Source: Alphaproteobacteria bacterium
Lineage (GTDB): Bacteria; Pseudomonadota; Alphaproteobacteria; Ferrovibrionales; Ferrovibrionaceae
DNA length: 64,000 nt
Direction: 5' to 3'
NCBI GenBank assembly: GCA_017307375.1
Contig: JAFKFH010000003.1
Location: 62,001 to 126,000, forward strand
Each line of letters starts with the position of its first letter. Positions within the stretch are counted from its first letter, which is position 1. The notes under the pieces were generated by a model. It worked only from the letters and a program-made list of their open reading frames with translations. It ran no database searches and was not told the DNA's origin. The position numbers and the translations under genes are program-made. Shown here piece by piece: positions 12,540 to 30,430 of the stretch.

Positions 12540-12965
12540 TCATCCCCGCACCCGGCGCAGCAGATTGCGTGCCGCGGCGGCCAGTTCGACGCTGTCGACC
12601 GGCTTGATGAAATAGAGATCGGCGCCGGCGCGCAGGGCGGACAGGCGCGACGCGGTGTCGCGCCGCCCGGTGAAGACGATCACCCCCATCGTCGTCCGCT
12701 CGGCCACGAACGAGGCTATGGAGACGCCGTCCTGGTCGGGCAGGCCCAGGTCGATCATCGCCAGTTCGAATTCGGCGGCCGCGAGCTTGCGATAGAATTC
12801 GGCGGCAGTCGCCACCCCGGTGACGGCAAACCCGGCCAGCCGCAGATAGTCGCCGACGGCTTCGCGCAGATCGACATCGTCGTCGACGAGCAGGATGCCG
12901 GGCCGCCCCTCCAGGGCGCCCGCATCGGGCCGGCTGTCGCTTGCGATAGACGCCGGCTGCGGCAT
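12540..12965 (-). CDS. Single-domain response regulator (receiver only)
   Basis: A 141-residue protein that is almost entirely a CheY-like receiver domain. It has the acidic cluster DDD (28-30), the phospho-acceptor D72 in AMIDLGLPD, T99 in VFTG and K121 in FIKPV. There is no output domain, so it must signal by protein contact. ATG 12965 is preceded by AGGGA at 7 bases and is preferred over a TTG at 13058. It is divergent from the sensor kinase at 13156 and close to the Pel operon. A role with that kinase in biofilm control is likely by context but not shown. It has a long N-terminal lead (about 22 residues) before the fold. Confidence 0.9.
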   Translation of the reverse strand: MPQPASIASDSRPDAGALEGRPGILLVDDDVDLREAVGDYLRLAGFAVTGVATAAEFYRKLAAAEFELAMIDLGLPDQDGVSIASFVAERTTMGVIVFTGRRDTASRLSALRAGADLYFIKPVDSVELAAAARNLLRRVRG

Positions 12966-13155
12966 CTGTCGTCCCTGCAAGTTCGTCACATCGAAGGTTC
13001 CCACACGCTGCCCGCGCAGCGCTGCCCCCAATCTCCGGATGAACCGGGCCGGCTTCAAGCCACGTATCGGAACAGCTTCGTTCCATAAGTGACAAAATGT
13101 AACTGACGACAGGGAAAGCTATTCGCGTCGGCAGCCGCACCCTACACTGACGGCT

Positions 13156-15282: not shown

Positions 15283-16221
15283 ATGGCGACCTGGCTGATC
15301 ACCGGCGGTGCCGGCTTCATCGGCTCTCACCTTGCGGAACGGCTGGTTGCCAGGGGCGACAACGTCCGGGTGATCGACGACCTGTCGAGCGGCAAGCCGG
15401 AAAACCTGCCGGCCGCCGCCGAACTGACGATCGGCGATGCCGCGGATCTCGATCTGGTGGAACGCTCGATGGCCGGGGCAGATGGCTGTTTCCATCTCGC
15501 CGCGATCGCCTCGGTCCAGCGCTCGACCGAGGATTGGCTGGCCACCCATCGCGCCAACCTGACCGCGACGATCACGGTGTTCGAGGCGGCGCGGCGCGCG
15601 CGGCCCGACCGGCCGCCCCCGGTCGTCTATGCCTCCTCGGCCGCCGTCTATGGCGACAATCCCGCCCTGCCGCTGGCCGAGACGGCGACGCCTTCGCCGC
15701 TGACCGCCTACGGCGCCGACAAGCTGGGCTCGGAGCAGCATGCCAGGGTCGGCTGGCTGGTGCATCGCGTGCCGTCGACCGGCTTTCGCTTCTTCAATGT
15801 GTACGGCCCCCGCCAGGACCCGAAATCGCCCTATTCCGGGGTGATCGCGATTTTCGCAGGGCGCGTCGCCGCCGGCCAGCCGATCAGCATCAACGGCGAC
15901 GGGCTGCAGACCCGCGACTTCGTCTATGTCGGCGACGTGGTCGACCATCTGATCGCCGCGATGGACCGTCCCGCGCCCGACGCCCGCGTCTTCAACGTAT
16001 GCACCGGCCGCGCCACCACGATACGCCGACTGGCCGAGGTCGTCGCCGGCATCGCCGGGGCAAGCCCGACGATCACCCATGGCCCGGCCCGCGCGGGCGA
16101 CATTCGCGAATCGCTCGGCAATCCGGCAGCCGCGACAGCGGCGCTCGGGGTGGTGGCGGCCACACCGATCGAGGAAGGGCTGACCGCGACGCTGCGGGCA
16201 GTCGCCGGGTCCGCGGGATGA
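15283..16221 (+). CDS. NAD-dependent nucleotide-sugar epimerase, PelX-like
   Basis: A 312-residue extended short-chain dehydrogenase. It has the NAD-binding GGAGFIGSH (8-16), Ser118/Ser119 in YASSAAVYG and the catalytic YxxxK (Y143, K147 in TAYGADK). RFFNVYGPRQDP and TRDFVYVGDVV follow, as in UDP-glucose/UDP-GlcNAc 4-epimerases. It is the first gene of the Pel operon and overlaps the PelA hydrolase gene by ATGA. In Pseudomonas relatives PelX makes UDP-GalNAc for Pel, a GalNAc/GlcNAc-type polymer, and the same job is likely here. It starts at ATG 15283 after AGGGGAT. Confidence 0.87.
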   Translation: MATWLITGGAGFIGSHLAERLVARGDNVRVIDDLSSGKPENLPAAAELTIGDAADLDLVERSMAGADGCFHLAAIASVQRSTEDWLATHRANLTATITVFEAARRARPDRPPPVVYASSAAVYGDNPALPLAETATPSPLTAYGADKLGSEQHARVGWLVHRVPSTGFRFFNVYGPRQDPKSPYSGVIAIFAGRVAAGQPISINGDGLQTRDFVYVGDVVDHLIAAMDRPAPDARVFNVCTGRATTIRRLAEVVAGIAGASPTITHGPARAGDIRESLGNPAAATAALGVVAATPIEEGLTATLRAVAGSAG

Positions 16222-17066
16222 GGCGCCTCGTCAGGAGGCTTGCCGCGCTGGCGGCCGCAGCGGCCCTGCAGGCCACACCGGCCGCCGCGGCCGATCCGCC
16301 CTGGATCGTCTACTATGGCGACAGTGCGCCGGTCGCCGCCTTCGCCCCTTACCGGGTCGTCGTGCTGGATGCCGACCACTATCCCCAGCCGCTGCGCGCC
16401 ATCGCCGCCCAGGGTTCGCTGCTGCTCGGCTATATGAGCCTGGGCGAGGTCGAGAACCATCGCAGCCACTATCAGGCGACCGTCGCCGCCGGCATCGTGC
16501 TGGACGAGAACCCGAACTGGCCCGGCAGCTATTACGTCGACGTCCGCAGCCCGGCCTGGACCCGGCTGATCGTCGACACGCTCGCCCCCGCCATCCTGGC
16601 CAAGGGCTTTTCCGGGTTCTTCCTCGACACGCTCGACAACCCGCCGTATCTGGAGCGCACCGACCCCGCGCGCTTTGCCGGCATGACCGACGGAGCGGCA
16701 AATCTGGTGACGGCGCTGCGCCAGCGCTTTCCGCAGGCCCCGATCATGTTGAACCGCGCCTTCGAGATCCTGCCGCGCGTCGTCGCCGACATCGACTTTT
16801 CCCTGGGCGAGAGCGTGCTCGCTGCCTACGATTTCGAGACCAAGAAGTACAAGCCGACGCCGGCCGAAGACCGCAAGTATCTGATTGCGCAGCTGCAGGC
16901 GGCGCGGAAGGCGCGGCCCGAGCTGAAGGTGATGACGCTGGATTACTGGGACCCCGACGACAAGCCCGGGATCGCCAAGCTTTATCAGAGCGAGCGGGCG
17001 CTCGGCTTCAATCCCTACGTCGCCACCATCGACCTGCGCCGCATCGTGCCGGAACCCCGCCGGTGA
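16218..17066 (+). CDS. pelA: PelA glycoside hydrolase part (GH114/GH166-like), separate gene
   Basis: A 282-residue secreted protein with a signal peptide (RRLAALAAAAALQATPAAAA). The remainder is a single TIM-barrel of the endo-alpha-1,4-polygalactosaminidase type: WIVYYGD, YRVVVLD, LLGYMSLGEVE, GFSGFFLDTLDN, DFSLGESV and MTLDYWD, in the order seen at the N-terminus of PelA. Glu198 in LGES is my candidate for the catalytic acid that corresponds to the essential Glu of Pseudomonas PelA. In Pseudomonas this domain is fused to a deacetylase in one protein of about 950 residues; here the deacetylase is the next gene, overlapping by GTGA. It would cut Pel in the periplasm. Confidence 0.9.
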   Translation: MRRLVRRLAALAAAAALQATPAAAADPPWIVYYGDSAPVAAFAPYRVVVLDADHYPQPLRAIAAQGSLLLGYMSLGEVENHRSHYQATVAAGIVLDENPNWPGSYYVDVRSPAWTRLIVDTLAPAILAKGFSGFFLDTLDNPPYLERTDPARFAGMTDGAANLVTALRQRFPQAPIMLNRAFEILPRVVADIDFSLGESVLAAYDFETKKYKPTPAEDRKYLIAQLQAARKARPELKVMTLDYWDPDDKPGIAKLYQSERALGFNPYVATIDLRRIVPEPRR

Positions 17067-19288
17067 GGGTCATCGCCGTCCTGCTGGCACTGATCCTGAC
17101 CGCCGCTCCGGCCTGGGCTGCGCCGATGCAGCGCACGGTCGTCGCCTTGTTCGACGGCCAGCGCGCCGGCTCGGCCAGGCTCTCCAACATCCATCGCATG
17201 GCGGCAATGCCGCTGAACTGGCTGGGACTCGTCGTCAGGTTCCACGACCTGCGCGATGGCCTGCCGCCGGTCTGGAACGACCCGGACGTGCGCGGCGTGC
17301 TGACGTTCTCGATGCAGCCCGGCGTCCCCGACCCGGCCGCCTATGTCGACTGGGCCGAGAAGGTCGTCGCCGCCGGGCGCAAGCTGGTGGTGCTGGGCGA
17401 GCTCGGCCCCACCGAGGATGCCAGGGGCAAGCCGGTGCCGCATGCACTGCTGGCACGTTTCGTCGGGCTGCTCGGCCTCGCCCATGACGGCGACTGGAGC
17501 CCGGTGGCCTATGACGCCCGGATCGTCCGGGCCGATGCCGCGATGGTCGGCTTCGAGCGCGCCTACGGCGACATCCTGCCGCCGTTCGAACTGTTCGAGC
17601 CGCTGACCGCCGATACCCGCTCGCATCTCGTCATCGGCCGCGCCGATCTCGACCGGCCGAGCCACCTGATCGTGACCGGCCCGAACGGCGGGTTCGCTGC
17701 GGCCGGTTTCACCCATTTCCGCGACCCGGCCCAGAATTTCACCCAATGGTACCTCAATCCGTTCGCCTTCTTCGAGGCGGCGTTCGGGCTGGGCGGCGAA
17801 CCGCGGCCGGACACCACGACGCAGGGCGGACGCCGGCTCTATTTCAGCCATATCGACGGCGACGGCTGGCGCAACCTGTCGACGGTCACGAAGTACCGCA
17901 AGGAACCGACCCTCTCGGCCTCGGTGGTCATGGCCGAGGTGATCGCGCCGAATCCCGACCTGCCGGTCACCGTCGCACCGATCGCCGCCGATCTCGACCC
18001 GGCCTGGTTCGGTACCGACCAGGCGCAGAAAGCGGCACGCGATCTGTTCGCCCTGCCCCAGGTCGAGCCGGCGAGCCATACCTACAGCCATCCGTTCCAG
18101 TGGAGCTTTTTTCGCAACTACACCTGGGAAAAGGAAAAGCCCTACCTGTCGCGCTACGAGGCGCAGGCGGGCGGCATCCCGATCTTCGAAGGCTCGCCCG
18201 ACGAGGATGCCGAGGAAGATCGGGGCGGCGACCAGATCGGCGCCGCCGGCACCGAAGACGACCGGCTGCGGCCGGGCTATGCGATTCCGCGCGCCTACGC
18301 GACCAGACCGTTCGAACTCGACAACGAGATCGCCGGCGCGATCCGCTACATCGACCAGTTCGCACCGCGGGGCAAGTCGGCAAGGCTGGTGCAATGGTCG
18401 GGCGACACCTCGCCCTTTCCCGAGGCGCTGGCGGCGACTAAGGCGGCCGGCGCCCACAACATCAACGGCGGCGACTCCCGCCTCGACAACGACTATCCGT
18501 CGGTATCCTGGGTGGCGCCGACCGGCGTGCCGGTCGGGCGCACGCTGCACATCTACGCGGCGATGAGCAACGAGAACACCTATACCGAACTGTGGAGCGC
18601 GCGCTTCTTCGGCTATCGCGACCTCGTCGCCACGCTCGAGAACACCGACCGGCCGCGACGGCTGAAGCCGATCAATCTCTACTATCACATGTATTCCGGC
18701 GAGAAGCAGGCCTCGCTGAAAGCCCTGCTCGACAACGTCGCCTGGATCAAGAAGCAGGAAATCCAGCCGGTCACCGCCACCCGTTTCGCCGAAATCGCCG
18801 AAGGGTTCTTCACGGTGCAGATCGAGCCCGACGGGCCGAACGCCTGGCGGATCCGCAATCGCGGCGCCTTGCAGACGGTGCGCTTCGACCATGTGGCGCC
18901 GACCGCGCTGCCCGACCTCGCCACCTCGACCGGCGTGATCGGCGCCCGCCGGGTCAACACCTCGCTCTACGTCGCCCTCGATCCGGCAGTGCAGGAGCCG
19001 CGCGTGGTCCTGACCGGCGGCCCGGCCCCGGCCGCGATGCTCGTCTCCTCCCGCTGGCCGGTCGAAGCCGTGATCCGCCAGGGCGGCGGGGTCGCGTTCG
19101 ATGCCGCGAACGGCTTCGGCGCCGGCGAGATGCGCTGGCAGATGCCGGCACCGGGGCGCTACACGATCACCGCGGCCGGCGAAAGCCGGCCGGCCGAAAC
19201 CGGTGCCGACGGCCAGCTGTCGTTCACCCTGCCGCCCGGATCGGCGGCCGGCCAGCGCGTGACCATCACGCCGCGGCCGGCGGACTAA
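17063..19288 (+). CDS. pelA: PelA deacetylase part (CE18-like), separate gene
   Basis: A 741-residue protein starting at GTG 17063, with its own signal peptide (VIAVLLALILTAAPAWA). A Rossmann-like region (30-220) comes before the deacetylase core. YFSHIDGDGW gives D265/D267 and ASHTYSHPF gives H339/H343, which match the Asp-x-Asp and His-x3-His metal-binding pattern of PelA. A C-terminal beta-rich domain (about 600-741) follows. It should remove acetyl groups from Pel in the periplasm so that the polymer becomes cationic. The separate signal peptide shows this is a genuine two-gene arrangement rather than a frameshift. Confidence 0.92.
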   Translation: MRVIAVLLALILTAAPAWAAPMQRTVVALFDGQRAGSARLSNIHRMAAMPLNWLGLVVRFHDLRDGLPPVWNDPDVRGVLTFSMQPGVPDPAAYVDWAEKVVAAGRKLVVLGELGPTEDARGKPVPHALLARFVGLLGLAHDGDWSPVAYDARIVRADAAMVGFERAYGDILPPFELFEPLTADTRSHLVIGRADLDRPSHLIVTGPNGGFAAAGFTHFRDPAQNFTQWYLNPFAFFEAAFGLGGEPRPDTTTQGGRRLYFSHIDGDGWRNLSTVTKYRKEPTLSASVVMAEVIAPNPDLPVTVAPIAADLDPAWFGTDQAQKAARDLFALPQVEPASHTYSHPFQWSFFRNYTWEKEKPYLSRYEAQAGGIPIFEGSPDEDAEEDRGGDQIGAAGTEDDRLRPGYAIPRAYATRPFELDNEIAGAIRYIDQFAPRGKSARLVQWSGDTSPFPEALAATKAAGAHNINGGDSRLDNDYPSVSWVAPTGVPVGRTLHIYAAMSNENTYTELWSARFFGYRDLVATLENTDRPRRLKPINLYYHMYSGEKQASLKALLDNVAWIKKQEIQPVTATRFAEIAEGFFTVQIEPDGPNAWRIRNRGALQTVRFDHVAPTALPDLATSTGVIGARRVNTSLYVALDPAVQEPRVVLTGGPAPAAMLVSSRWPVEAVIRQGGGVAFDAANGFGAGEMRWQMPAPGRYTITAAGESRPAETGADGQLSFTLPPGSAAGQRVTITPRPAD

Positions 19289-19295
19289 GCCGCCG

Positions 19296-22200
19296 ATGCG
19301 GGGGAACCTTGTCCTCGTCGCACTGCTGGCCGTCGGGTCGCTGCTGCTGGCCTGGGCGATGATCCCGTCGCCGATGGAGATCGCGGCGATGCAACTGCGC
19401 GATTTCGACTATGACCCGGCCCAGGCCTATTTCGAGGCGCAATACGACCAGGGCGACCGGTCGCCCCAGATCGTCGGGCGGCTGGCCGATCTCTATCTCG
19501 AACTGGGCGACCCCGACCGCGCCCAACAGGTCCTGGCAGGCTATGTGACGGCGCATCCCCGCGATCTTTCCGCCCTGCGGCGTTTCGCGGACGTGCAATA
19601 CCTCGTGCGCGACTATTCTGGCCTGCGGGCGAGCCTGGAAAAGCTTGCCGCGGTCGAACCCGACATCGCCATCCTGCGGCGGCTGGCCAATATCGCGGTC
19701 ATGCAGAACGACGGGGTGCGGCGCACCCGCTGGCTGCGTGGCCTGATGCAGCGCGGGGCGGTGACCGACGAGGAGGTGACCGAACTGACGCTGCGGCTGG
19801 CGGCACGCGACAAGGCCGAAGCGCGAGCGGTCCTGGCCGACTGGCTCACCCGCAAGCCATCGGCGCGCAATACCGCATCGCTGCAGCTTCTTGCCAGTCT
19901 CGCCGCCGATATCGGCGATACGACCGCCCTCGAGCAGGCCGGGCGGATGGCACTGTCGGCCGGCGGGATGCCGATGTTCCTGACGCTGATCGCCGTTGTC
20001 GCCGAACGCGACAAGCCCAGGCTGGCGCTCGATCTCGCCCGCTCGGCCGTCCCGGCGGGCGAGGCGATGCCGCCGCCGCTTGCCACCCGCGCCGCGCAGA
20101 TCGAACTGACCGACGGCCGGCCGCAGAACGCCTATGCCCTGCTGCTGCCGCTGTTGCGCGCGAACACCATCGAGCGCGACGCGCTGATCACCCTGATCGA
20201 TGCCGCGATCAGCCAGCGCGACACCGCCACCGCGTTGGCGGCCGCCTTGCGCTACGGCGTCGCCGACCTGCCGCGCGACCGCCTGCGCGGCCTCCTGTCC
20301 TTCGCCCAGGGGCAGGGCCGGGAACGCGTCTTGGCCCTAGATGCCCAGGTGACTGCAGCCCAGCGTCAGGCCGACCCGCTGCTGGCCGCCGAACTCGCCG
20401 CAGCCCTCGGCCTGCAGGACGAAAGCCGGCGTGCCCTGGCGCGCATCGATCAGCCCGAAGCCCTGCCGCTGAACGACCGCCTGGCCTATGCCGGCCTGGC
20501 CCTGCGGCTCGGCGACCGCGCAGGCGCGCTGCCGATCCTGGCCGCGGTCGCCGAGGATGCCGATGTGCCGACCGCCGTGCTGGGCGAGCTCGGCCGTCTC
20601 TACCTCGATCTCGGCCGCGCCGCCGACGGCCTGCCGCTGTTCCGCCGCCTGAGGACGACCAGGCCGGGCGGGACGGTCCTGACCGCCTGGGCCGAACTCG
20701 AGGCGACCGCGGGCGATCCCGCGGCAGTCGAGCAGTGGCTGGGCACCGGGCCGGAGGTCGACCGCCAGACCCTGCAGGACCTCTACTGGATCGGGCGCGA
20801 TCGCGGCCGGGCCAGGCTGTCGATGCTGGCGGTCGACCAGATCTCCCGACGCTTTCCCGGCACGCTCGACCCGGCGATGCAGGCCCGTGCGCTGCTCGAC
20901 GGCGGCGACGCGGCGGGCGCCCTGGCGATTGCCGAACCGATGGCCGGCCGCGGCGGCGAGGCGGAAGCGGTCTACATCGCCGCGCTGGCACGGCTCGGCC
21001 GGGATGGCGAGGCCAAACGCTATCTCGTCACCCGCCTGGCCGATCCGCACAGCGACGAAGCGCGCATCACCGCGCTGGCGCAGGCACTGGCCGACCTGCC
21101 CGGGCCGCTGCCCGCCGACGCCGCGGCCGTGACCCGGCTGGCCGACGATATTCGGAAGGCGGCCATCGCCCCCGCCGCGCGTGATGCCCGCCTGGTGCTG
21201 CTCGACCGCCTCGATCCCGCGGTCGCCCGACAGGTGGCGGCAGCACTTGCCCAGGCCGACCCAGACGGCGCAACCCCGACCGTCGTCACGCTGGTCGGGC
21301 CGGACGCGGCGTTCGAGCTGCTGCTGCGCCAGCTGCGCCAGGACCGGCTGTCGCCCGACCTGTCGCCGCTGCTGGTCCAGCTCGCCTTCGACCGGGGCCA
21401 GACCGCCCTGGCCGAACAGGTCGCGCGGCGTACCGGCCTCGGCCCGCTGGCCGACGACCTGGCCCGCGCCCTGATCGCCCGCGCGGTGGCCGAGCGCCAC
21501 GGCGACGTGCTGGCGCAATGGGACCAGGAATTCCCGCCGGCTGCGCGCGAGGCGCGCCCGCTGGTTGCCGTGGCCCTCGATCTCGCCTTCGGCCGCAACG
21601 AGGCCGCCCAGCGCCGGATCGATGCGCTGATGCATATCGCGGCCGATCCAGGCACCGCTCCGGCGACCGTGATCAGCATCGCCGACGCGCTGGTCGCCAT
21701 GGGCCGCGCCGCACAGGCGGTCGCGGTGCTCGACCAGGCGCGCCGCAATGCAGGCGATCCGGCGCTTGCCATCGCCTGGGCCCGGATCGCCGCGCGACGC
21801 GGCGACGGCGCCAAGGTCGCCGCCTGGCTCGGCGCGACCCGGCCGGCCGATCCGCTGCTGCTGCGCGACATCTACTATGCCGCGGTCGAGGCGAAGTCGT
21901 TTGCGCTGGCCACGACCGCCGCCGACCAGCTGCTGCAGCTGGAGCCCGGCGCCGACAATTCGCTGCTCTACGCCCAGGCGTTGGCCGGCGCCGGGCGCAA
22001 GCCGGCCCTGCGCGACTTTCTGTTGCGCCGGATGGCCCGCACCGACCTGACCACCGCCCAGCGCACGGAGATGGGCTGGCTGCTGGTCGAGGCGCTGCCG
22101 GGTGCCGCACCCGACGAGAACGGCACCCTGGCCCGCATCATCGACGAGGAGCTGGAGCGGCGGACGCTGACCCCGCAGGTCGAGGACCAGCGCCTCGCCA

Positions 22201-23177
22201 TCCTCGCCGCGATCAGCCCCCAGCGCGCCGCCCGGCGCATCGCCGCGGCCGCCGAGGATCCACAGGCGACGCGCGAACAGCGCCGCAACCTCGCCGGCCG
22301 GCTGCTCGCCCTCGGCGGCAAGGCGATGGCAGAACCGGTCTACCGGCGCCTCGCCGCGGGGCAGCCGCCCGATTCGCCCGACGTCGCGGAATTGCTGTTC
22401 CTGTGGGGACCGGCGCCGACTGCGGGCGAACTCGCCTGGCTGACAGACCGCGCGCGCAACGCCGCGCCGGCCAGCCGTGACGCATGGGCCCGGCTGCTGC
22501 TCGAGCGCGGCGCGCCCGAACGGGTGCTGAGCCTGGTCGAGGCGCTGCCGCCCGAAGCGGTCACCCCGGCGCTGGACCAGGTCTATGTCGAGGCGCTGGC
22601 GCAGGGCGGCCGGGCCGGGAATCGGATCGGGCTGGCGATCCAGCGCGCCATTGTCCGCAACGCCCCCACCGCACAGCTGGTGGCGCTCGGCACGCTGGCG
22701 GAAGGCGAGCAAGTGACAGGTGCCGCCAACGCAGCCTGGAATGCGATCCTCGCCCGCGACCCCGATTCGGGTCCGGCATTGCGCGGCCTTGCCCGCCTCG
22801 CCTTCGCCGAAGGCCGGCGTCGCGACGCCATCGCCCTCTATCAGCGCTTGCTGACGCGGAATGCCGGCACCTGGCCGGACCACTACCAGCTCGGTGAACT
22901 GCTGCTGGCCCGCGGCGACCGCGCCGCCGCCCGCCCGGAACAGCAGAAGGCGCTGGCCCTGATCGACGCCGAGCGCAAGCCCGACCCGGCCGCGGCGACG
23001 GCACGCGCCCAGTTGCTCTACCGCCTCGGCCGGACCGACGAGGCGCTGGCCGCCTTCGAGGCACAGCGCCGCGCCCGGCCGCGCGACAAGGACCTGCTGG
23101 CCGACTATGTCGGGGTGCTGATGGAACTCGGCCGCAACGGCGAGGCGGCGCGGCTGCTCGGCGGGAACGCGTCATGA
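19296..23177 (+). CDS. pelB: PelB TPR scaffold part, separate from the porin
   Basis: A 1293-residue, Ala/Leu/Arg-rich helical protein with one N-terminal membrane anchor (LVLVALLAVGSLLLAWA). Tetratricopeptide-like repeats cover almost the whole length, for example GRLADLYLELGDPDRAQQVLAGYV, LADLYLDLGR-type units and the last RLGRTDEALAAFEAQRRARPRDKD. It corresponds to the long periplasmic TPR region of PelB, which brings PelA to the export path. In Pseudomonas this region is fused to the outer-membrane barrel in one protein of about 1190 residues; here the barrel is encoded by the next gene, overlapping by ATGA. Repeat number was not counted exactly. Confidence 0.85.
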   Translation: MRGNLVLVALLAVGSLLLAWAMIPSPMEIAAMQLRDFDYDPAQAYFEAQYDQGDRSPQIVGRLADLYLELGDPDRAQQVLAGYVTAHPRDLSALRRFADVQYLVRDYSGLRASLEKLAAVEPDIAILRRLANIAVMQNDGVRRTRWLRGLMQRGAVTDEEVTELTLRLAARDKAEARAVLADWLTRKPSARNTASLQLLASLAADIGDTTALEQAGRMALSAGGMPMFLTLIAVVAERDKPRLALDLARSAVPAGEAMPPPLATRAAQIELTDGRPQNAYALLLPLLRANTIERDALITLIDAAISQRDTATALAAALRYGVADLPRDRLRGLLSFAQGQGRERVLALDAQVTAAQRQADPLLAAELAAALGLQDESRRALARIDQPEALPLNDRLAYAGLALRLGDRAGALPILAAVAEDADVPTAVLGELGRLYLDLGRAADGLPLFRRLRTTRPGGTVLTAWAELEATAGDPAAVEQWLGTGPEVDRQTLQDLYWIGRDRGRARLSMLAVDQISRRFPGTLDPAMQARALLDGGDAAGALAIAEPMAGRGGEAEAVYIAALARLGRDGEAKRYLVTRLADPHSDEARITALAQALADLPGPLPADAAAVTRLADDIRKAAIAPAARDARLVLLDRLDPAVARQVAAALAQADPDGATPTVVTLVGPDAAFELLLRQLRQDRLSPDLSPLLVQLAFDRGQTALAEQVARRTGLGPLADDLARALIARAVAERHGDVLAQWDQEFPPAAREARPLVAVALDLAFGRNEAAQRRIDALMHIAADPGTAPATVISIADALVAMGRAAQAVAVLDQARRNAGDPALAIAWARIAARRGDGAKVAAWLGATRPADPLLLRDIYYAAVEAKSFALATTAADQLLQLEPGADNSLLYAQALAGAGRKPALRDFLLRRMARTDLTTAQRTEMGWLLVEALPGAAPDENGTLARIIDEELERRTLTPQVEDQRLAILAAISPQRAARRIAAAAEDPQATREQRRNLAGRLLALGGKAMAEPVYRRLAAGQPPDSPDVAELLFLWGPAPTAGELAWLTDRARNAAPASRDAWARLLLERGAPERVLSLVEALPPEAVTPALDQVYVEALAQGGRAGNRIGLAIQRAIVRNAPTAQLVALGTLAEGEQVTGAANAAWNAILARDPDSGPALRGLARLAFAEGRRRDAIALYQRLLTRNAGTWPDHYQLGELLLARGDRAAARPEQQKALALIDAERKPDPAAATARAQLLYRLGRTDEALAAFEAQRRARPRDKDLLADYVGVLMELGRNGEAARLLGGNAS

Positions 23178-24991
23178 GGGCCCGCCATCTCGCCCGCGCC
23201 TCGATGCTGCCGCTGCTGCTGCTGGCCGGCCCCGCCCTGGCCACGACGATCGCCGTCGACCTGCCGCTGGCGCCGGAAACGATCGAACGCCGCGACAATG
23301 ATCCGCGCACGGTGCTGCTGCGCTTCGGCCAGGTCATCGATCCCGCCGAATTCATGGAGCTGACGGCCGCCGACACCAGCAGCCTGGCGATCGGCGAGGA
23401 CACGGTGACGCTGGCCTTCGGCCATCCGGTCGTGGCCTCGCTGCGCGACGGCCACCAGCTGTTGCTTGCCGATGCCACGCCCGACCCCGAGGACATGATG
23501 GATATCGGCGGCGGTGCCGCCGAGCCGGCGCCGCCGATCGTCGGCGGTCCGCCAGGCCCGGCGCGCCTGGACATCCCCCTGCCGCAGGCCCCGGCCCTGG
23601 TCGGCCAGCGCGACGGCGATCCGCGCACGGTGGTACTGAGCTTCGCCGAACCGATCGACCCGGCGGCGTTCGGCGACGTGGCCGGGGCGGAGATCGAGGG
23701 CATCACCCTGGGCTACGACACCGCACTGCTGCAGTTCGACCGGCCGGTCCAGGCCTCGCTGGACGGGCCGCGCAACCTCGTCGTCGCCGACCTGCCGGCC
23801 CCGCGCGTGCCGCTCGCGGCCGATCGCGGGCAGTTGCGCCTCGACATCCTGAAGGCCGAGCTGGAGGCCCGCACCGGCGATCCGGTCGCCGCCCGCGGCG
23901 CCCTGCAGGCGCTCGACCTCGATACCCGCGGCGACCCCGACGTGCTGACGGCACTGGCGTCGGTCGAACAGCAGCTGGGCGGCTGGAACCGGGCGATCTC
24001 CACCTACGACCGGATCCTGGAGACCCGGGCCGGTGACGAGGGGGTGATCGGCGAACGGGACAGGCTGGAACGGAACTACGGCCCGCAGGTCCGCACCGAT
24101 CTCGACTGGCAGGAAGTGAAGGACCAGGACCGCCAGTGGATCTCGCGCACCACGGCGCGCGCGCCGGTCGACCAGAACACGACGGTAGACGGCGCCGTCG
24201 AGGCACGCCGGGTGATCGCACCGAATGTCGTGCAGCCGAACGGCGTGCAGACAAACGTGGCGACCAACAAGATGCGCGGCGAGATCGCGATCGCCCATGA
24301 CTGGGGCAACGGCCAGGAAACCCGCGCCGCGCTCTACGGCCAGGAAGGCTCGGCCGGTATCGGCGCCAGCCACCGCCTGCGCAACGGCGAGACGGAAACC
24401 AAGGTTACCGCCTATTATCACAAACCCTTCTGGGATCTGGTCAACGGCATCACCGACCGCGGCACGGTCGACGGCATCGAGCTGCGCCGCGAACAGCCGC
24501 TGTGGCCGCGCTGGTCGGCAGCGGCCGGCGTCACCCTGTCGCGCTACGGCGTCGACGGCGACGACGATGTCGGCCGCTCGCTCGGCGTCACCGCCGGCCT
24601 GCGCTACGCGCTGGTTCAGGACAAGCCCTTCGTCTCGATCGGCTATGGCTTCGACGGGCTGTTCGTGACGGGCGTGGAAGCGCGCACCAACGCCCAGGGC
24701 GTGCGCTACCAGCCGCTGCCGCTGTCCAAGCGCCAGGCCCATTCGCTGGACATCTATGCGACCGACCACCTGCCATGGATCAGCGACAAGCTGCGCTACG
24801 ACGCCTTCCTCGGCTATTCCGTCGATCCCTACAACGTCAATGGCGTGTTCGGCGGGCTGACCCTCGCCTACGAGGCAACCGATCGCCTGGAGGCCGGCCT
24901 GCGCGCCGCCTACAGCGCCAATTCCGGCACCGGTACCGGCACCGTCGCCCCGGTGACCCGGATCGGCGGCTACGTCCTGTGGAGATTCTGA
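23174..24991 (+). CDS. pelB: PelB outer-membrane barrel part with tandem beta-domains
   Basis: A 605-residue protein with a signal peptide (LPLLLLAGPALA). Two related domains of about 80-90 residues follow; each begins with ..LPLAP/LPQAP, then ER/QRDxDPRTVxLxF, IDPAxF, and ends VVASL / VQASL. Next come a short TPR-like helical segment (about 215-290) and an anti-parallel beta-barrel from about 300, ending YVLWRF with the terminal Phe typical of outer-membrane proteins. The barrel contains ALYGQEGSAGIGASHRL and repeated alternating strands. It should be the Pel export pore. The two N-terminal domains are not part of Pseudomonas PelB and resemble AMIN-type periplasmic domains. Confidence 0.83.
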   Translation: MRARHLARASMLPLLLLAGPALATTIAVDLPLAPETIERRDNDPRTVLLRFGQVIDPAEFMELTAADTSSLAIGEDTVTLAFGHPVVASLRDGHQLLLADATPDPEDMMDIGGGAAEPAPPIVGGPPGPARLDIPLPQAPALVGQRDGDPRTVVLSFAEPIDPAAFGDVAGAEIEGITLGYDTALLQFDRPVQASLDGPRNLVVADLPAPRVPLAADRGQLRLDILKAELEARTGDPVAARGALQALDLDTRGDPDVLTALASVEQQLGGWNRAISTYDRILETRAGDEGVIGERDRLERNYGPQVRTDLDWQEVKDQDRQWISRTTARAPVDQNTTVDGAVEARRVIAPNVVQPNGVQTNVATNKMRGEIAIAHDWGNGQETRAALYGQEGSAGIGASHRLRNGETETKVTAYYHKPFWDLVNGITDRGTVDGIELRREQPLWPRWSAAAGVTLSRYGVDGDDDVGRSLGVTAGLRYALVQDKPFVSIGYGFDGLFVTGVEARTNAQGVRYQPLPLSKRQAHSLDIYATDHLPWISDKLRYDAFLGYSVDPYNVNGVFGGLTLAYEATDRLEAGLRAAYSANSGTGTGTVAPVTRIGGYVLWRF

Positions 24992-24993
24992 GC

Positions 24994-26385
24994 ATGGCTT
25001 CCCCGGCGCCCGAACCTCTGACCGCGCCCGGCGACCGGCAGGCATGGCGCTGGCCGGCCAATCCCCGCGCCCTGCTCGAAATTCTGCTGTTCGTCGCCGT
25101 CACCCTGGCCATCGACCACTTCTTCTTCGACGGCCATCGTTTCCGCACCGTCACGCTGCACCCGTTCTGGCTGATGGTGTTGCTGGTCTCGGTCCAGTAC
25201 GGCGTGGCCGAGGGCCTTGCCGCGGCGCTTGCCGGCACCGCGGCGCTGTGGATCGGCAACCTGCCGCCGGCCAGGCTCGACCAGGATCTCTACGGCTACT
25301 GGCTCGGCGTGGCCGCGATGCCGGCGGCCTGGCTGGCGGCCGCCGTGCTGTTCGGCGAGCTGCGCGCCCGCGACCGGCGGCGGATCATCGTGCTGTCGCG
25401 CGCCCTTGCCGACGGCGAGCGGCAGAACGAGACGCTGAGCCGGGCCTACGACGAGATCAGCGCCGCCAAGCGCGAGCTGGAGGCCCGCGTCGCCGGCCAG
25501 CTCAGGACCGTGTTCTCGATCTACCAGGCCGCCAAGGCGATCGAGCGGCTGGGGCCCGGCGAGGTGCTGTCGGGCGTAGCCGAGCTGGTGCGGGCGATCC
25601 TGTCGGCCAAGCGCTTCTCGGTCTTCCTGCTGAAGGGGGACGCGCTCGAGGCGATCGCGCTGGAATCGGTGGTGACCGAAGGCTGGGGCGCCGACGAACG
25701 CCTGCCCGAGCGCTATGATGCGGGTTCGGCGCTGTTCCAGGCGGTGGTAGGCGGCCAGCGCTTCCTGTGCGCCGCCCGCGCCGCCGATGCCGGCATTCTG
25801 GGCGATGACGGGGTGCTGGCCGGCCCGATCCTGTCCGCCGAGGGCCGGGTCCTCGGCATGCTCAAGATCGAGGGGCTGGCCTTCCTCGACCTCAACCTGA
25901 CGGCGATCGAGAATTTCCGCATCGTCTGCGACTGGATCGGCACCGCCTTCGCCAAGGCCCAGGCCTTCGAGACGGCGGCCAGCGACAGCCTCTATTCCAG
26001 CGAGCGCATGATGCTGTCGACGAGCTTCCTGGAACGCCAGATCGCCTTTCTGACCTCGCTCGGCCGGCGGATGAAGTTCGACGTCACGCTGCTCGAGGTC
26101 ACCATAACCGGGGCCGAGCAGGCGGTCGAGGCCGACCGGCTGCTCTATGCCCGCACGGTCGGCGAAGTCGTCGGCCGCTCGCTGCGCAATACCGACCTCG
26201 CCTTCGACCACAAGCGTTCGGGCTTCGAGTTCGCGGTGCTGCTGCCGGCGACCTCGACCGCCGAGGCCCGCATCGTCGCCAACAAGCTGGAACGGGCGGT
26301 GCGCGAACAGCTCGGCGCCGCCCAGGCCGAAGCGGCGGGGATCACGATCGGCGTGCGGGCCCTGGTGCAAGGGGCCGCGCCATGA
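24994..26385 (+). CDS. pelD: PelD, membrane c-di-GMP receptor
   Basis: A 463-residue inner-membrane protein. It has about four helices within 25-122, a coiled-coil linker (130-170), a GAF domain (about 170-325; RFSVFLLKGD) and a degenerate GGDEF domain (from about 330) with no GGDEF signature. The inhibitory-site motif RNTD is present at R398-D401 in GRSLRNTDLAF; the RxxD pair is what binds c-di-GMP in Pseudomonas PelD. Polymer synthesis is thus predicted to be switched on post-translationally by c-di-GMP. It starts 2 bases after the barrel gene and shares ATGA with pelE. Confidence 0.93.
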   Translation: MASPAPEPLTAPGDRQAWRWPANPRALLEILLFVAVTLAIDHFFFDGHRFRTVTLHPFWLMVLLVSVQYGVAEGLAAALAGTAALWIGNLPPARLDQDLYGYWLGVAAMPAAWLAAAVLFGELRARDRRRIIVLSRALADGERQNETLSRAYDEISAAKRELEARVAGQLRTVFSIYQAAKAIERLGPGEVLSGVAELVRAILSAKRFSVFLLKGDALEAIALESVVTEGWGADERLPERYDAGSALFQAVVGGQRFLCAARAADAGILGDDGVLAGPILSAEGRVLGMLKIEGLAFLDLNLTAIENFRIVCDWIGTAFAKAQAFETAASDSLYSSERMMLSTSFLERQIAFLTSLGRRMKFDVTLLEVTITGAEQAVEADRLLYARTVGEVVGRSLRNTDLAFDHKRSGFEFAVLLPATSTAEARIVANKLERAVREQLGAAQAEAAGITIGVRALVQGAAP

Positions 26386-27446
26386 CCGGCGCCGCCCGCC
26401 GTGAACCCCGGCTGGGGGCAGATTTCTGGGTGATGGCCGTCGCAGCCGCCGTCGTCGAGACCATCCTGCTGGCGCTGCTGGTCCACAAGGTCGTCGGCCT
26501 CGGGCTGTTCGGCGCGACCCATTGCGCGGTCGTGCTGGCAATGGCCGGCTGGTGCCGGCTGAACCGCACGCGATCGGCGGTGGCCTGCCTGCTGTGCCTC
26601 GCGGCCACGACGACGATGGCGGCACCGGGCGCCTGGGGCGCCCTGGGCGCCGGACTGGCGCTGCTCCTCTTCCGCCGCCGCGCCACGTCGTTCGAAGACT
26701 GGTATGCCTCGCTGTTCCCGACCGAAGCCGAGAGCCGGGCACTGGCCCTCTACCGGCGGCTCGAGGCCGGGCAGGAAGGTGTTGCCGCCTCGTCCAGCCT
26801 GACCGCCTTCGTCGACATCCTGCGGCTTGGCACGCCCGAGCAGAAGGAAGCCGTCGTCACCATCCTCAGCCGCAACTTCCGGCCCGCCTTCGCGCCCGCC
26901 CTGCGGCTCGCCCTGCAGGACGCGGTCCCGTCGGTGCGTGTGCAGGCGGCCACGGCGGCAGCCGAGATCGAGAACGATTTCCTCGCCCGTTCGATCGCCC
27001 TGCGCCGCGAGATCGAGGCACGGCCCGACGATGTCGAGGCCCATGTCCAGCTGGCGTCGTTCTACGACGACTACAGCTATTCCGGCATGCTCGACCCGCT
27101 ACGCGAGGAAGAGAACCGCCGGCTGGCCCTGGTGCACTATCGCGAGGCGCTGAAGCGCCGGCCCGGCGACCTGGCGCTCGAAGCCGCGGTCGGGCGCTGC
27201 CTGGTCCGGTCCGGCGACGTGGCGCGGGCCGAGCGCTGGATCGCCCGCTCGCTGCGTCGCGGCCTCGACGATCGCGCGCTGTTCGTCTGGTATCTCGACT
27301 GCCTGTTCGCGCTGCGCCGCTTCGACGAGTTGCGCGACCTGATCGGCAAGAACCAGGCCATCCTGCTCGGTGACGGCCAGACCCGGCCCGGCGACCCGGT
27401 GCCGGCCTCGGTGCAGCTGTGGCTGGCGGAGGAAAAGGCGGCATGA
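26382..27446 (+). CDS. pelE: PelE, membrane protein with helical-repeat tail
   Basis: A 354-residue protein. Hydrophobic helices lie at about 14-36, 40-56 and 64-97, followed by a soluble alpha-helical region with HEAT/TPR-like repeats (EQKEAVVTILSRNFRP, RQ-type VRVQAATAAAEIE, VEAHVQLASFYDDYSYSG, ALEAAVGRCLVRSGDVARAERW). It matches PelE in size, topology and gene position between pelD and pelF. PelE joins PelD, PelF and PelG in the inner-membrane synthase complex. It overlaps pelD and pelF by ATGA each, so translation is coupled. Confidence 0.85.
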   Translation: MTGAARREPRLGADFWVMAVAAAVVETILLALLVHKVVGLGLFGATHCAVVLAMAGWCRLNRTRSAVACLLCLAATTTMAAPGAWGALGAGLALLLFRRRATSFEDWYASLFPTEAESRALALYRRLEAGQEGVAASSSLTAFVDILRLGTPEQKEAVVTILSRNFRPAFAPALRLALQDAVPSVRVQAATAAAEIENDFLARSIALRREIEARPDDVEAHVQLASFYDDYSYSGMLDPLREEENRRLALVHYREALKRRPGDLALEAAVGRCLVRSGDVARAERWIARSLRRGLDDRALFVWYLDCLFALRRFDELRDLIGKNQAILLGDGQTRPGDPVPASVQLWLAEEKAA

Positions 27447-28948
27447 CCCGGCCGATCGATGTCTGCCTGGTGCTCGAAGGGACCTACCCCTATGTCGTCG
27501 GCGGGGTATCGAGCTGGGTGCACGATCTGGTCAAGGCGCAGGCCGACCTGAATTTCCACGGCGCCTGCCTGATCGCCGAGGCCAAGCCGCCGCAGATGCG
27601 GTTCGAACCGCCCGGAAACTTCGTGACCCATGCCGCGATCTCGCTGCAGCGCCTGGCGCCCGGAAAAAGCGACGAGGCGCTGGCCCGCCGGCTGTTTGCC
27701 GAACTGGAAGGGCCACTGACCCGGCTGCTGCATCGGGGGGGCCTTGCCGAACTGCGCGCGGTCTTGGCGCTGGTCGCGCCGCTGCGCGGGCACATCGGCC
27801 GGGCGATCGTGCTGGACAGCCGTGCGGCCTTCGGCTGCGTCGAGCGGATGTATGATGCCGCGATGCCCGGCGCCTCGTTCCTCGACTACTTCTGGACCTG
27901 GCGGGCGCTGGTCGGCGGCCTGATGGCCGTGCTGCTGGCACCGGTGCCGCCGGCGCGGCTCTATCACACCATCTCGACCGGCTATGCCGGCCTGCTCGCC
28001 GCCCGCATGGGGGTCGAGACCGGACGGCCGGTGCTGCTGACCGAGCACGGCATCTACACCAACGAACGGCGCATCGAGATCGCAATGGCCGACTGGCTGC
28101 ATGCGGGCGATGCGCAGGGCCTGGCCATCGAGAAACCGCGGCGCGACCTGCGCGACCTGTGGATCGATGCCTTCGTCGCCTATGCCCGCGCGACCTACGA
28201 GGCCGCCACCGAGATCGTCACGCTCTACGGCGGCAACCAGGATCTGCAGCGGCGCGAGGGCGCGCCGCCGGAAAAGCTGAAGGTGATCCCGAACGGCATC
28301 GACTATCCGCGCTTCTCAGGGATCGCCCGCGACCGCTCGGAACGGCGCCCCACCGTGGCGCTGATCGGCCGGGTGGTCCCGATCAAGGACCTGAAGACGT
28401 TCATCCGCGCCATCGGCATCCTGCGCAACGAAGTCCCCGACGTGCTGGCCGACATCCTCGGGCCGACCGAGGAAGACGCGCCCTATGCCGAGGAATGCCG
28501 GCGCATGGTCACCCATCTCGGCCTCGAGAACAACGTGCGCTTCCTCGGCCGCGTCAAGCTCGACGATCACCTGGGCCGCGTCGACGTGGTCGCGCTGACC
28601 TCGATTTCCGAGGCGCAGCCGCTGGTCATGCTCGAAGCCGGTGCGGCGGGCATTCCGTCCGTCGTCACCGATGTCGGCGCCTGCCGCGAGATGATCTTCG
28701 GCCGGCCCGGGGTCGATGCCCATCTCGGCCCCGGCGGCGCGGTGACCCCGGTCGCCAGCCCCGATGCGACCGCCGCGGCGCTGGCCCGCCTGCTGACCGA
28801 CCGCAGCTGGTGGCATGCCTGTTCGACCGCCATGAAGGAACGGGTGCGCGTCAGCTACAACAAGGTCGAGATCGATCGCATCTACGCCGGGCTCTATCAC
28901 GACCATCTCGACAGCCGATCGCACGGGCTGCGGGCGGGGGCGGCCTGA
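27443..28948 (+). CDS. pelF: PelF, GT4 family glycosyltransferase
   Basis: A 501-residue cytosolic glycosyltransferase that polymerises Pel from UDP-sugars. The N-terminus DVCLVLEGTYPYVVGGVSSWVH is a PelF hallmark. LYHTISTGYAGLLAARMG and LLTEHGIYTNERRIEI follow. The GT-B nucleotide site is at VALIGRVVPIKDLKTFIRA, and the E-x7-E motif is at SEAQPLVMLEAGAAGIPSV. The ATG at 27443 overlaps the pelE stop. The typical length of PelF is about 500. Confidence 0.95.
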   Translation: MTRPIDVCLVLEGTYPYVVGGVSSWVHDLVKAQADLNFHGACLIAEAKPPQMRFEPPGNFVTHAAISLQRLAPGKSDEALARRLFAELEGPLTRLLHRGGLAELRAVLALVAPLRGHIGRAIVLDSRAAFGCVERMYDAAMPGASFLDYFWTWRALVGGLMAVLLAPVPPARLYHTISTGYAGLLAARMGVETGRPVLLTEHGIYTNERRIEIAMADWLHAGDAQGLAIEKPRRDLRDLWIDAFVAYARATYEAATEIVTLYGGNQDLQRREGAPPEKLKVIPNGIDYPRFSGIARDRSERRPTVALIGRVVPIKDLKTFIRAIGILRNEVPDVLADILGPTEEDAPYAEECRRMVTHLGLENNVRFLGRVKLDDHLGRVDVVALTSISEAQPLVMLEAGAAGIPSVVTDVGACREMIFGRPGVDAHLGPGGAVTPVASPDATAAALARLLTDRSWWHACSTAMKERVRVSYNKVEIDRIYAGLYHDHLDSRSHGLRAGAA

Positions 28949-28949
28949 G

Positions 28950-30332
28950 ATGGCGGGCATCGGCTTCGTTCTGCGCCGGCTGACCCAGCGCGACGACCTG
29001 CTGGGCCTGGCCCAGGGTTATCTGCTGTCGGCGCTGGTCTCGTCGGGGCCGTGGCTGCTGACCGTGCTGGCGATCGCCGGGGTCAACCTGATCGGCACGG
29101 CGGTCGCCGGCATCGCCCAGGTCGAACAGTTCCGTATCGTCATCATCTACAACTTCGGCTTCTCGCTGCTGTTTTCCGGGCCGATCCTGCTGGTCGGCAC
29201 GCGTTATCTGGCCGATCGCATCTTCACGCGCGACGTTTCGGATGCGCCGTCGATGTTCCTGGGGGCCTATGCGCTGATCGTCGCGACCCAGGCACCGATC
29301 GTGCTGGCCTTCTATCTGTGGTACGTGCAGACTGACGACCTTGTCCGGGTCGGCGCGATCACCAACTATTTCCTGGTCGCCGCCCTCTGGCTCGTCACGA
29401 TCTTCCTGTCGGCACTGAAGGATTACCGGACCATCGCCGCCGCCTTCGCGCTGGGCATGGTGGTGGCGATCGGGTCGACCGCCTGGGCGGGGAAGGCATT
29501 CGGCGCCGCGGGGCTCTGCTTCAGCTTTTCGGCCGGGCTGGCCGTCGTGGTCTTCCTGATGGTCGCCCGGCTGTGGGCCGAGTATCCCTATGGCTTCAAT
29601 CGCCCATGGGACTTCCTGCGCTACTTCGGGCGTTTCAAGGCACTGGCCGCGATCGGCTTCTTCGCCAATGCTGCGGCCTGGATCGACAAATGGATCATGT
29701 GGGCGGCGCCCGAGCGCAGCTGGCCGGCGCATGGCATGGTATCCTACCCGGCCTATGACAGCGCGATGTTCCTGGCCTATCTGGTCATCGTGCCGACGCT
29801 GGCCCTGTTCATCGTCCAGGTCGAGACCGAATTCTTCGAACAGTACAAGCGCTTCTACGACGCAATCCAGCGGCACGCCACCCGCGCCCAGATCCGCGAG
29901 AACCAGCGGGCGATCATCGCCACGGTGATTCGCGCGTCGCGCAACCTGATCATCCTGCAGGTCGTGCTCTGCGGCCTCGTCATCCTGCTGTCGCCGGAGA
30001 TCTTCTCGGGCCTCGGCATCTCGTTCAACCAGATCGGCATGTTCCGCATCGGCGTGCTGGGCGCGATGTTCCACGGGCTGATCATGTTCGCCTGCATCCT
30101 GCTGGCCTATTTCGACCTGCGGCGCGACATGCTGATGGTCAACCTGATCTTCTTCGGCCTGAACGCGGCGTTCACCGCCGTCACGCTGAACCTGGGTTTC
30201 CCCTATTACGGCTACGGCTATTTCCTGGCCGCGCTGGCCACGTTCCTGTTCGCCTACGGCCTGGTCGCGCGGCGGCTGGCCGACCTGCCCTACCTGACCT
30301 TCGTCAAGCAGAACCAGTCGGTTGCGTCCTGA
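28950..30332 (+). CDS. pelG: PelG, Wzx-like polytopic membrane protein
   Basis: A 460-residue protein with about twelve membrane helices, opening with AGIGFVLRRLTQRDDLLGL and YLLSALVSSGPWLLTVLAI, typical of PelG. It belongs to the polysaccharide transport/MOP flippase superfamily and is thought to move the growing Pel chain through the inner membrane together with PelD, PelE and PelF. It is the last gene of the Pel operon, 1 base after the pelF stop, and is followed by a strong terminator. Confidence 0.93.
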   Translation: MAGIGFVLRRLTQRDDLLGLAQGYLLSALVSSGPWLLTVLAIAGVNLIGTAVAGIAQVEQFRIVIIYNFGFSLLFSGPILLVGTRYLADRIFTRDVSDAPSMFLGAYALIVATQAPIVLAFYLWYVQTDDLVRVGAITNYFLVAALWLVTIFLSALKDYRTIAAAFALGMVVAIGSTAWAGKAFGAAGLCFSFSAGLAVVVFLMVARLWAEYPYGFNRPWDFLRYFGRFKALAAIGFFANAAAWIDKWIMWAAPERSWPAHGMVSYPAYDSAMFLAYLVIVPTLALFIVQVETEFFEQYKRFYDAIQRHATRAQIRENQRAIIATVIRASRNLIILQVVLCGLVILLSPEIFSGLGISFNQIGMFRIGVLGAMFHGLIMFACILLAYFDLRRDMLMVNLIFFGLNAAFTAVTLNLGFPYYGYGYFLAALATFLFAYGLVARRLADLPYLTFVKQNQSVAS

Positions 30333-30348
30333 GAGTGGCCCGGAACTT

Positions 30349-30383
30349 GCGACGCGGATGGCCGAGGGCCGGATCCGCGTCGC
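30349..30383 (+). other. Hairpin after pelG
   Basis: A perfect 11-bp inverted repeat (GCGACGCGGAT / ATCCGCGTCGC) with a 13-base loop lies 16 bases past the pelG stop and upstream of the U-rich terminator. It may protect the 3' end of the long Pel mRNA from exonucleases. Confidence 0.6.
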
Positions 30384-30406
30384 GACCGGCCGCGATGGCG
30401 CTTTGA

Positions 30407-30430
30407 CGGGCGGCAAGCCGCCCGTTTTTT
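30407..30430 (+). terminator. Rho-independent terminator of the Pel operon
   Basis: Stem CGGGCGG / CCGCCCG with loop CAAG (extendable to 8 bp) is followed by TTTTTT (30425-30430). The T-run ends only 10 bases before the LysR start codon. Confidence 0.92.

Follow-up and report, generated by a model that had tools for sequence, protein, structure and literature searches.

Can the Pel polysaccharide leave a Gram-negative cell without PelC? In the 2025 PelBC structure paper (PMC12141448), PelC is a hallmark, essential in Pseudomonas aeruginosa, and the need for its ring is called 'puzzling'. The paper also ascribes transport to the negative interior of the PelB barrel and states that BcsC and PgaA need no lipoprotein; by contrast, PMC12022489 has export proceed through the electronegative channel of PelC. 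The question is raised by a nine-gene Pel operon (positions 15283-30332, + strand) in the 64,000 nucleotides of alphaproteobacterial DNA analysed here, hereafter the window. Its features are as follows.

15283..16221, + strand: PelX-like NAD-dependent sugar epimerase, likely a UDP-GlcNAc/UDP-GalNAc 4-epimerase (Epimerase PF01370, 1.9e-52; 6wjb/6wj9, 1e-76)
16218..17066, + strand: PelA hydrolase, a separate protein (GH114 Pfam family, 4.1e-23; solved PelA hydrolase 5tcb, 4.3e-22)
17063..19288, + strand: PelA alpha/beta plus deacetylase (CE21-type), a separate protein (GTG start; 4-base overlap with the hydrolase gene; PelA 9cgy, 1.2e-59)
19296..23177, + strand: PelB TPR scaffold, 1293 aa, N-terminal hydrophobic stretch (TPR matches; blastp against the Azospirillum thermophilum scaffold, 4e-37)
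23174..24991, + strand: PelB outer-membrane protein, 605 residues, with signal-like N-terminus, two AMIN-like domains, TPR and 16-strand barrel (AlphaFold2 mean pLDDT 86.3; 9h80_M, Z 31.8; blastp against the A. thermophilum barrel protein, 7.5e-59)
23243..23473, + strand: AMIN-like domain 1, aa 24-100 of the barrel protein (in-house profile 3.3e-11, the domain itself being a seed; modelled strands from 25 to 100)
23558..23794, + strand: AMIN-like domain 2, aa 129-207 of the barrel protein (in-house profile 9.1e-16, the domain itself being a seed; folded alone, pLDDT 90; AmiC 4bin, Z 7.0)
24994..26385, + strand: PelD, degenerate GGDEF receptor (GAF_3, 7.7e-10; PelD_GGDEF, 5.7e-4, below cut-off; 45% identity to A. 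thermophilum PelD)
26382..27446, + strand: PelE, membrane and TPR protein (TPR_19, 5.9e-7; A. thermophilum gene at the same place by blastp, 2.8e-56)
27443..28948, + strand: PelF glycosyltransferase, GT4 (NF038011, 2.2e-128, 429.4 bits against a cut-off of 100)
28950..30332, + strand: PelG inner-membrane transporter (PF16933, 1.2e-122, 410.5 bits against a cut-off of 29)

The gene content and order claimed by an earlier note on this DNA are borne out: PelA and PelB are each split in two, and PelD, PelE, PelF and PelG follow in the normal order on the + strand. Five of the eight junctions are 4-base overlaps, the other three being gaps of 7, 2 and 1 bases. All nine products match their A. thermophilum counterparts by blastp, with identities of 30 to 64% and E values of 4e-37 or better, the epimerase being 64% identical to the one that heads the pel locus of that species. 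The best solved relatives of the window's epimerase, 6wjb and 6wj9, are presumably PelX structures. The core shared with other Pel loci, including Gram-positive ones, is present as PelF, PelG and a PelA-type deacetylase with its catalytic motifs. Compared with pelABCDEFG of P. aeruginosa, the locus has the same PelD-E-F-G order, a PelA hydrolase and deacetylase, and a PelB made of TPRs and a 16-strand barrel; it differs in that PelA and PelB are two proteins each, PelC is missing and the epimerase lies inside the operon. Upstream, a 7TMR-DISM histidine kinase (13156-15177, + strand) stops 105 bases before the epimerase, and a response regulator (12540-13058, - strand) lies near it on the opposite strand; the two are possibly a regulator of the Pel operon.

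Alignment of the deacetylase to solved PelA (9cgy) shows that the H-x-D-G-D, HxxxH and YYHxYSG stretches are conserved, in which PMC12022489 places the base, metal ligands and acid of the enzyme. In the hydrolase, aligned to 5tcb, the Glu that differs between 5tcb and 5tsy is conserved, and so is the D of FLDTLD. To judge by these alignments, the Pel enzymes look intact. PelD reaches 20.2 bits with PelD_GGDEF, under the cut-off of 27; its RNTD aligns opposite RSSD of WspR, which we take to be the c-di-GMP I-site, an alignment in keeping with PelD as a c-di-GMP receptor. These observations bear on whether the operon could be decaying, with PelC the first part lost and no Pel exported. Relatives do manage without a Pel system: pelF was found in none of 17 other genomes of the order, leaving the window's own genome as sole carrier among 18. 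Decay is nonetheless very improbable in our judgement, given nine open frames, the conserved catalytic residues and the recurrence of the PelC-less form across many lineages (below). Since pelF occurs in this genome only among the 18, the operon may have been acquired sideways.

The two halves of PelB are encoded in different reading frames, their genes overlapping by 4 bases, and the barrel half has a signal-like N-terminus of its own. A sequencing error or otherwise artefactual split was considered and rejected as very unlikely on these grounds and because the same break is found in many genomes. The AlphaFold2 model of the barrel protein comprises two small beta-rich domains, a five-helix TPR and 16 strands. 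Residues 219-605 superpose on residues 803-1191 of PelB (9h80_M; rmsd 3.4 over 360 aligned residues); weaker structural matches are BcsC (6tzk, Z 24.1) and 4y25 (Z 24.0), the latter presumably PgaA. The model also shares two details with PelB as described in PMC12141448: strand 7 is separated from strand 8 by a short helix, and the loop joining strands 15 and 16 contains three glycines. In the region where an equivalent of PelB Tyr-1103 was sought, a conserved His starts strand 12 in 49 of 51 barrel rows; the A4 profile search for that equivalent gave alignments in the TPR only.

Scaffold and barrel can be separate proteins, because they are encoded far apart elsewhere: in genome G197 some 2.9 Mb of the same contig separate the scaffold and deacetylase genes from barrel-D-E-F-G, and in G082 the two sets are on different contigs. 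Both genomes belong to group f83 (the paired loci are L183 and L040 in one case, L184 and L044 in the other); in G290, of the same group, the deacetylase alone was located.

To place both splits in context, pel loci were collected from a sample of the class. PelF was found at E<=1e-60 in 20 of 385 genomes, own included. In 18 of these 20 genomes the barrel has a frame of its own, apart from the scaffold: the two are neighbours in 13, and the others are G044, G351 and three members of group f83 whose locus shows the barrel only. No genome has a one-chain PelB, the arrangement being unreadable in G064 and G217. At the G064 locus (L050), PelD comes after the end of a scaffold, without a labelled barrel frame in between. 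Both PelA parts are seen in eight of the 20 genomes, and in all eight they are separate. The operon had been called rearranged in the earlier note; comparison with these alphaproteobacterial loci shows that this does not apply, the split being the standard form of the clade. A wider set of 101 profile-annotated loci was obtained, after removal of duplicates, from plasmid records, the class sample and named genomes, of which 576 were scanned and the best 80 taken, a choice biased to PelF like the query. It holds 50 split barrel frames, at least three of them cut by contig starts (L059, L090 and L108), against 10 one-chain PelB. Among its 58 loci with a deacetylase, the hydrolase is a separate frame in 29, the deacetylase stands alone within the stretch in 25, and the two share one frame in only four (L010, L011, L012 and L014), all beta- or gammaproteobacterial.

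The absence of a visible pelC, also claimed before, is upheld and extends to the whole genome. The barrel gene ends at 24991 and PelD begins at 24994, so that a pelC has no room between them. Six-frame searches of the whole genome for PelC gave a best E of 6.55, over 26 positions only, with a 5-sequence profile, and nothing at E<=10 with a 17-sequence profile. As positive controls, eight of eight genomes were recovered by the latter at 5e-27 or better (seven with pelC at the locus, and G351, with pelC on another contig beside the barrel), a control that is partly circular, as three of the 17 profile rows come from G380, G383 and G274, and G114, G178 and G351 stand close to two of these three. 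A close comparison is with Azospirillum (A. thermophilum, A. lipoferum and others), whose Pel loci share the gene order and both splits, carry one AMIN-like domain on the barrel and have a true pelC between barrel and pelD, which the window lacks. The A. thermophilum locus runs epimerase, hydrolase, deacetylase, TPR, barrel, PelC, PelD, E, F, G, and the PelC encoded there is a true one by its match to 5t11 (2.7e-13). This PelC scores above the cut-offs of the CsgG and GNA1162-like families, with a weak match to LpoB. Unlike in other Azospirillum, no PelC was found in A. oleiclasticum (L056).

These family matches indicate that lipoproteins of the PelC fold are several, so that a stand-in is conceivable: a PelC-type ring could be formed by another lipoprotein, unrelated to PelC or very divergent from it, whose gene lies outside the operon, and an unrelated one would be invisible to profile searches. 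When the 17-sequence profile was applied to 22 genomes without pelC at the pel locus, six gave weak matches: G044 (3.4e-9, in a frame of 812 aa), G407 (1.9e-8, 329 aa), G401 (2.9e-4, 1241 aa), G406 (5.3e-4, 663 aa), G126 (0.008, 139 aa) and G197 (0.014, 594 aa). The short frame of G126 could be a small lipoprotein. On the other hand, 16 of the 22 gave nothing at E<=0.1, the window's own genome gave no PelC-like match at E<=10 and its operon holds no extra gene. We therefore regard a substitute ring as unlikely, and favour an exporter that has lost PelC outright.

The distribution of PelC points the same way. Within the class sample PelC is clear in 8 of the 20 PelF-bearing genomes, and no convincing PelC was found in 12, own included (completeness 68% for G064 and 95% or more for each of the remaining 11). 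In the 101-locus set, the PelC state was readable in 65 loci, 30 with PelC and 35 without. On a PelF+PelG tree of these 65 loci the PelC state changes at least six times; removal of six doubtful rows (59 rows left) still leaves six changes, and the 59-row tree rejects the grouping of all PelC-less loci in one clade (p-AU 8e-75), both trees being quick ones and the first having given long-branch warnings. PelC keeps one place: among the 30 loci that have it, the barrel or PelB stands just before in 28, and next comes PelD in 27 (three after a second pelC) or PelF in 3. Because the place is kept, loss is simpler than repeated gain, and repeated PelC loss is the simplest reading. The row nearest to the window on the tree is Aerophototrophica crusticola, where no PelC was found either. 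Neither the two splits nor the lack of PelC is peculiar to this genome. Two further arrangements were noted in the survey. Three loci of gammaproteobacterial MAGs (L078, L084 and L085) carry two tandem, divergent pelC genes between barrel and PelD, possibly giving a hetero-oligomeric ring; and L037, with the order X-d-D-E-h-T-b-C-F-G, is a real rearrangement in which PelD and PelE have moved forward.

In P. aeruginosa, PelC docks at the barrel turns that face the periplasm. The Lys/Arg content of these turns shows no trace of a lost dock: it is 0.092 per residue where PelC is present (23 barrels) and 0.101 where it is not (28 barrels). Asp/Glu per residue in the same two sets is 0.186 with PelC and 0.135 without, kinship being ignored.

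The barrel protein carries two N-terminal repeats of about 80 residues, which were read as AMIN-like from their sequence ahead of any fold search and from which an in-house profile was built, both window copies being among its seeds. Pfam AMIN (PF11741) matched none of 35 members of the domain at E<=10, and gave no match in the window's own genome at E<=0.1. A Pfam scan of the 35 members found no family matching more than one of them (best E 0.023). Comparison by hhalign with 24 AMIN sequences gave a probability of 15.7%, against 0.76% for the best of 30 column-shuffled controls. The domain was also folded alone, since the VIA rows for the whole barrel protein cover residues 225-605. The top four VIA rows for this model are AmiC (Z 7.0, under 8), a type IVa pilus machine chain (6.9) and PilQ twice (5.7 and 5.3, the last tied by ArgR). 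Foldseek was weak, with nothing better than E 0.2, arginine repressors in the first seven places and PilQ at rank 8. With moderate confidence, then, the modelled domain is AMIN-like by fold. The AMIN fold binds peptidoglycan in AmiC and PilQ, and the domain may be what keeps a split exporter in position.

The profile finds the domain in 45 of the 50 split barrel frames. Of the five others, three are cut by contig starts, L038 has no match in a 370-aa frame, and in L047 (7822-11058) the domain is found not on the barrel but at the scaffold C-terminus, the split point having moved. It also occurs in six of the ten one-chain PelB, sited between scaffold and barrel, and because these chains join both parts with the domain inside, the notion of scaffold and barrel acting in line is supported. 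None was found in the three classical PelB scanned, all beta-proteobacterial (L010-L012). Two Nitrospinota loci (L076 and L083) encode, besides the barrel protein, a further TPR protein that carries an AMIN-like domain close to the N-terminus. The earlier suggestion that the split form may assemble a different secretion apparatus is supported in part: PelC is missing, and the domain was not found in the three classical PelB, but one copy is also present in 23 of 25 split barrels with PelC. The AMIN-like domain is hence a mark of this type of PelB rather than of PelC loss, which it does not explain, being present with and without PelC.

A takeover of the PelC job by the AMIN-like domains, as a periplasmic collar or acidic funnel, was also weighed. 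Two copies occur in only four of the 45 domain-bearing split barrels (the window, L040, L041 and L044), all four PelC-less, and the two window copies with their linker have a net charge of -20. However, L040, L041 and L044 form one group, and among the 25 split barrels without PelC, 18 have just one copy, like those with PelC, and in 3 none was found. Tests for compensation by charge (mean charge being scored only in barrels where the domain had been found) or by doubled domains gave no result, as the tree offered three independent pairs only. Doubled domains as compensation for PelC are at most suggestive, and we consider a takeover improbable.

We consider it probable, though by no means assured, that this is a complete Pel operon of the modular type common in Alphaproteobacteria, that it has lost pelC, and that it works broadly as follows. 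The epimerase would supply UDP-GalNAc, and PelD, PelE, PelF and PelG would make and pass the polymer, with c-di-GMP on PelD as the switch. The separate deacetylase would work on the TPR scaffold, itself held in the inner membrane, and the free hydrolase would trim or release polymer. Since the isolated PelA hydrolase of P. aeruginosa does not bind PelB, according to PMC12022489, a free hydrolase forfeits no known contact. The scaffold would then hand the cationic chain to the AMIN-TPR-barrel protein, whose AMIN-like domains may anchor the barrel in the wall and aid its encounter with the separate scaffold. The barrel would work as those of BcsC and PgaA do, so that, on our analysis, a working Pel exporter needing no lipoprotein ring is the most likely reading. 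Such an exporter fits the view, put forward in PMC12141448, that the negative barrel interior drives transport and that the need for PelC is puzzling; as described there, BcsC (cellulose) and PgaA (PNAG) likewise combine a TPR scaffold and a 16-strand barrel with no lipoprotein ring. They differ from the Pel exporter in their polymers and synthases. Both are single chains, and neither is known to have an AMIN-like domain.

The broader proposal is that there is a widespread class of PelC-independent Gram-negative Pel exporters, built from a wall-anchored AMIN-TPR-barrel protein and a separate inner-membrane TPR scaffold, for which PelC would be a dispensable accessory lost many times; for this we judge the chances to be even. 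If it is true, a survey using PelC to find Pel systems would have missed the PelC-less class. According to PMC7112168, an earlier survey was queried with PelC as unique to Pel. That paper also describes Gram-positive pelDEA(DA)FG loci, which resemble the window in having a deacetylase-only PelA, with the hydrolase a separate gene nearby in bacilli, and differ in having no outer membrane and, as described there, no outer-membrane exporter. The pipeline of PMC7112194, as far as the accessible text describes it, is not based on PelC, and its figures may show some of the present loci; the legend to its Fig 5 reports 'pelB fission' in aquatic thermophiles, a split PelB like that of the window but in other taxa, and PelB, PelC and PelE are described as more divergent. 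The accessible text mentions neither a split PelA nor PelC loss nor an AMIN-like domain. The PelB split is consequently already in print, and what is new is a PelC-less Pel exporter bearing AMIN-like domains. This novelty is limited to the literature searched, in which neither Gram-negative Pel loci devoid of PelC nor a PelB with an AMIN-like domain turned up, the search having left out most subscription papers and all figures. Natural PelC-less loci make the function of the ring a question of comparison, as between A. oleiclasticum and the other Azospirillum with PelC.

Another feature of the survey concerns OPX (Wza-like polysaccharide export) proteins, which are encoded near PelF/PelG in Pel loci of Sulfitobacter, Cereibacter, Microvirga, Methylobacterium and Hyphomicrobiaceae. 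The loci concerned are L008 and L009, by annotation only, and L069, L115, L123, L130 and L132, by profiles and with no PelB barrel labelled. The OPX protein is possibly another way out for Pel.
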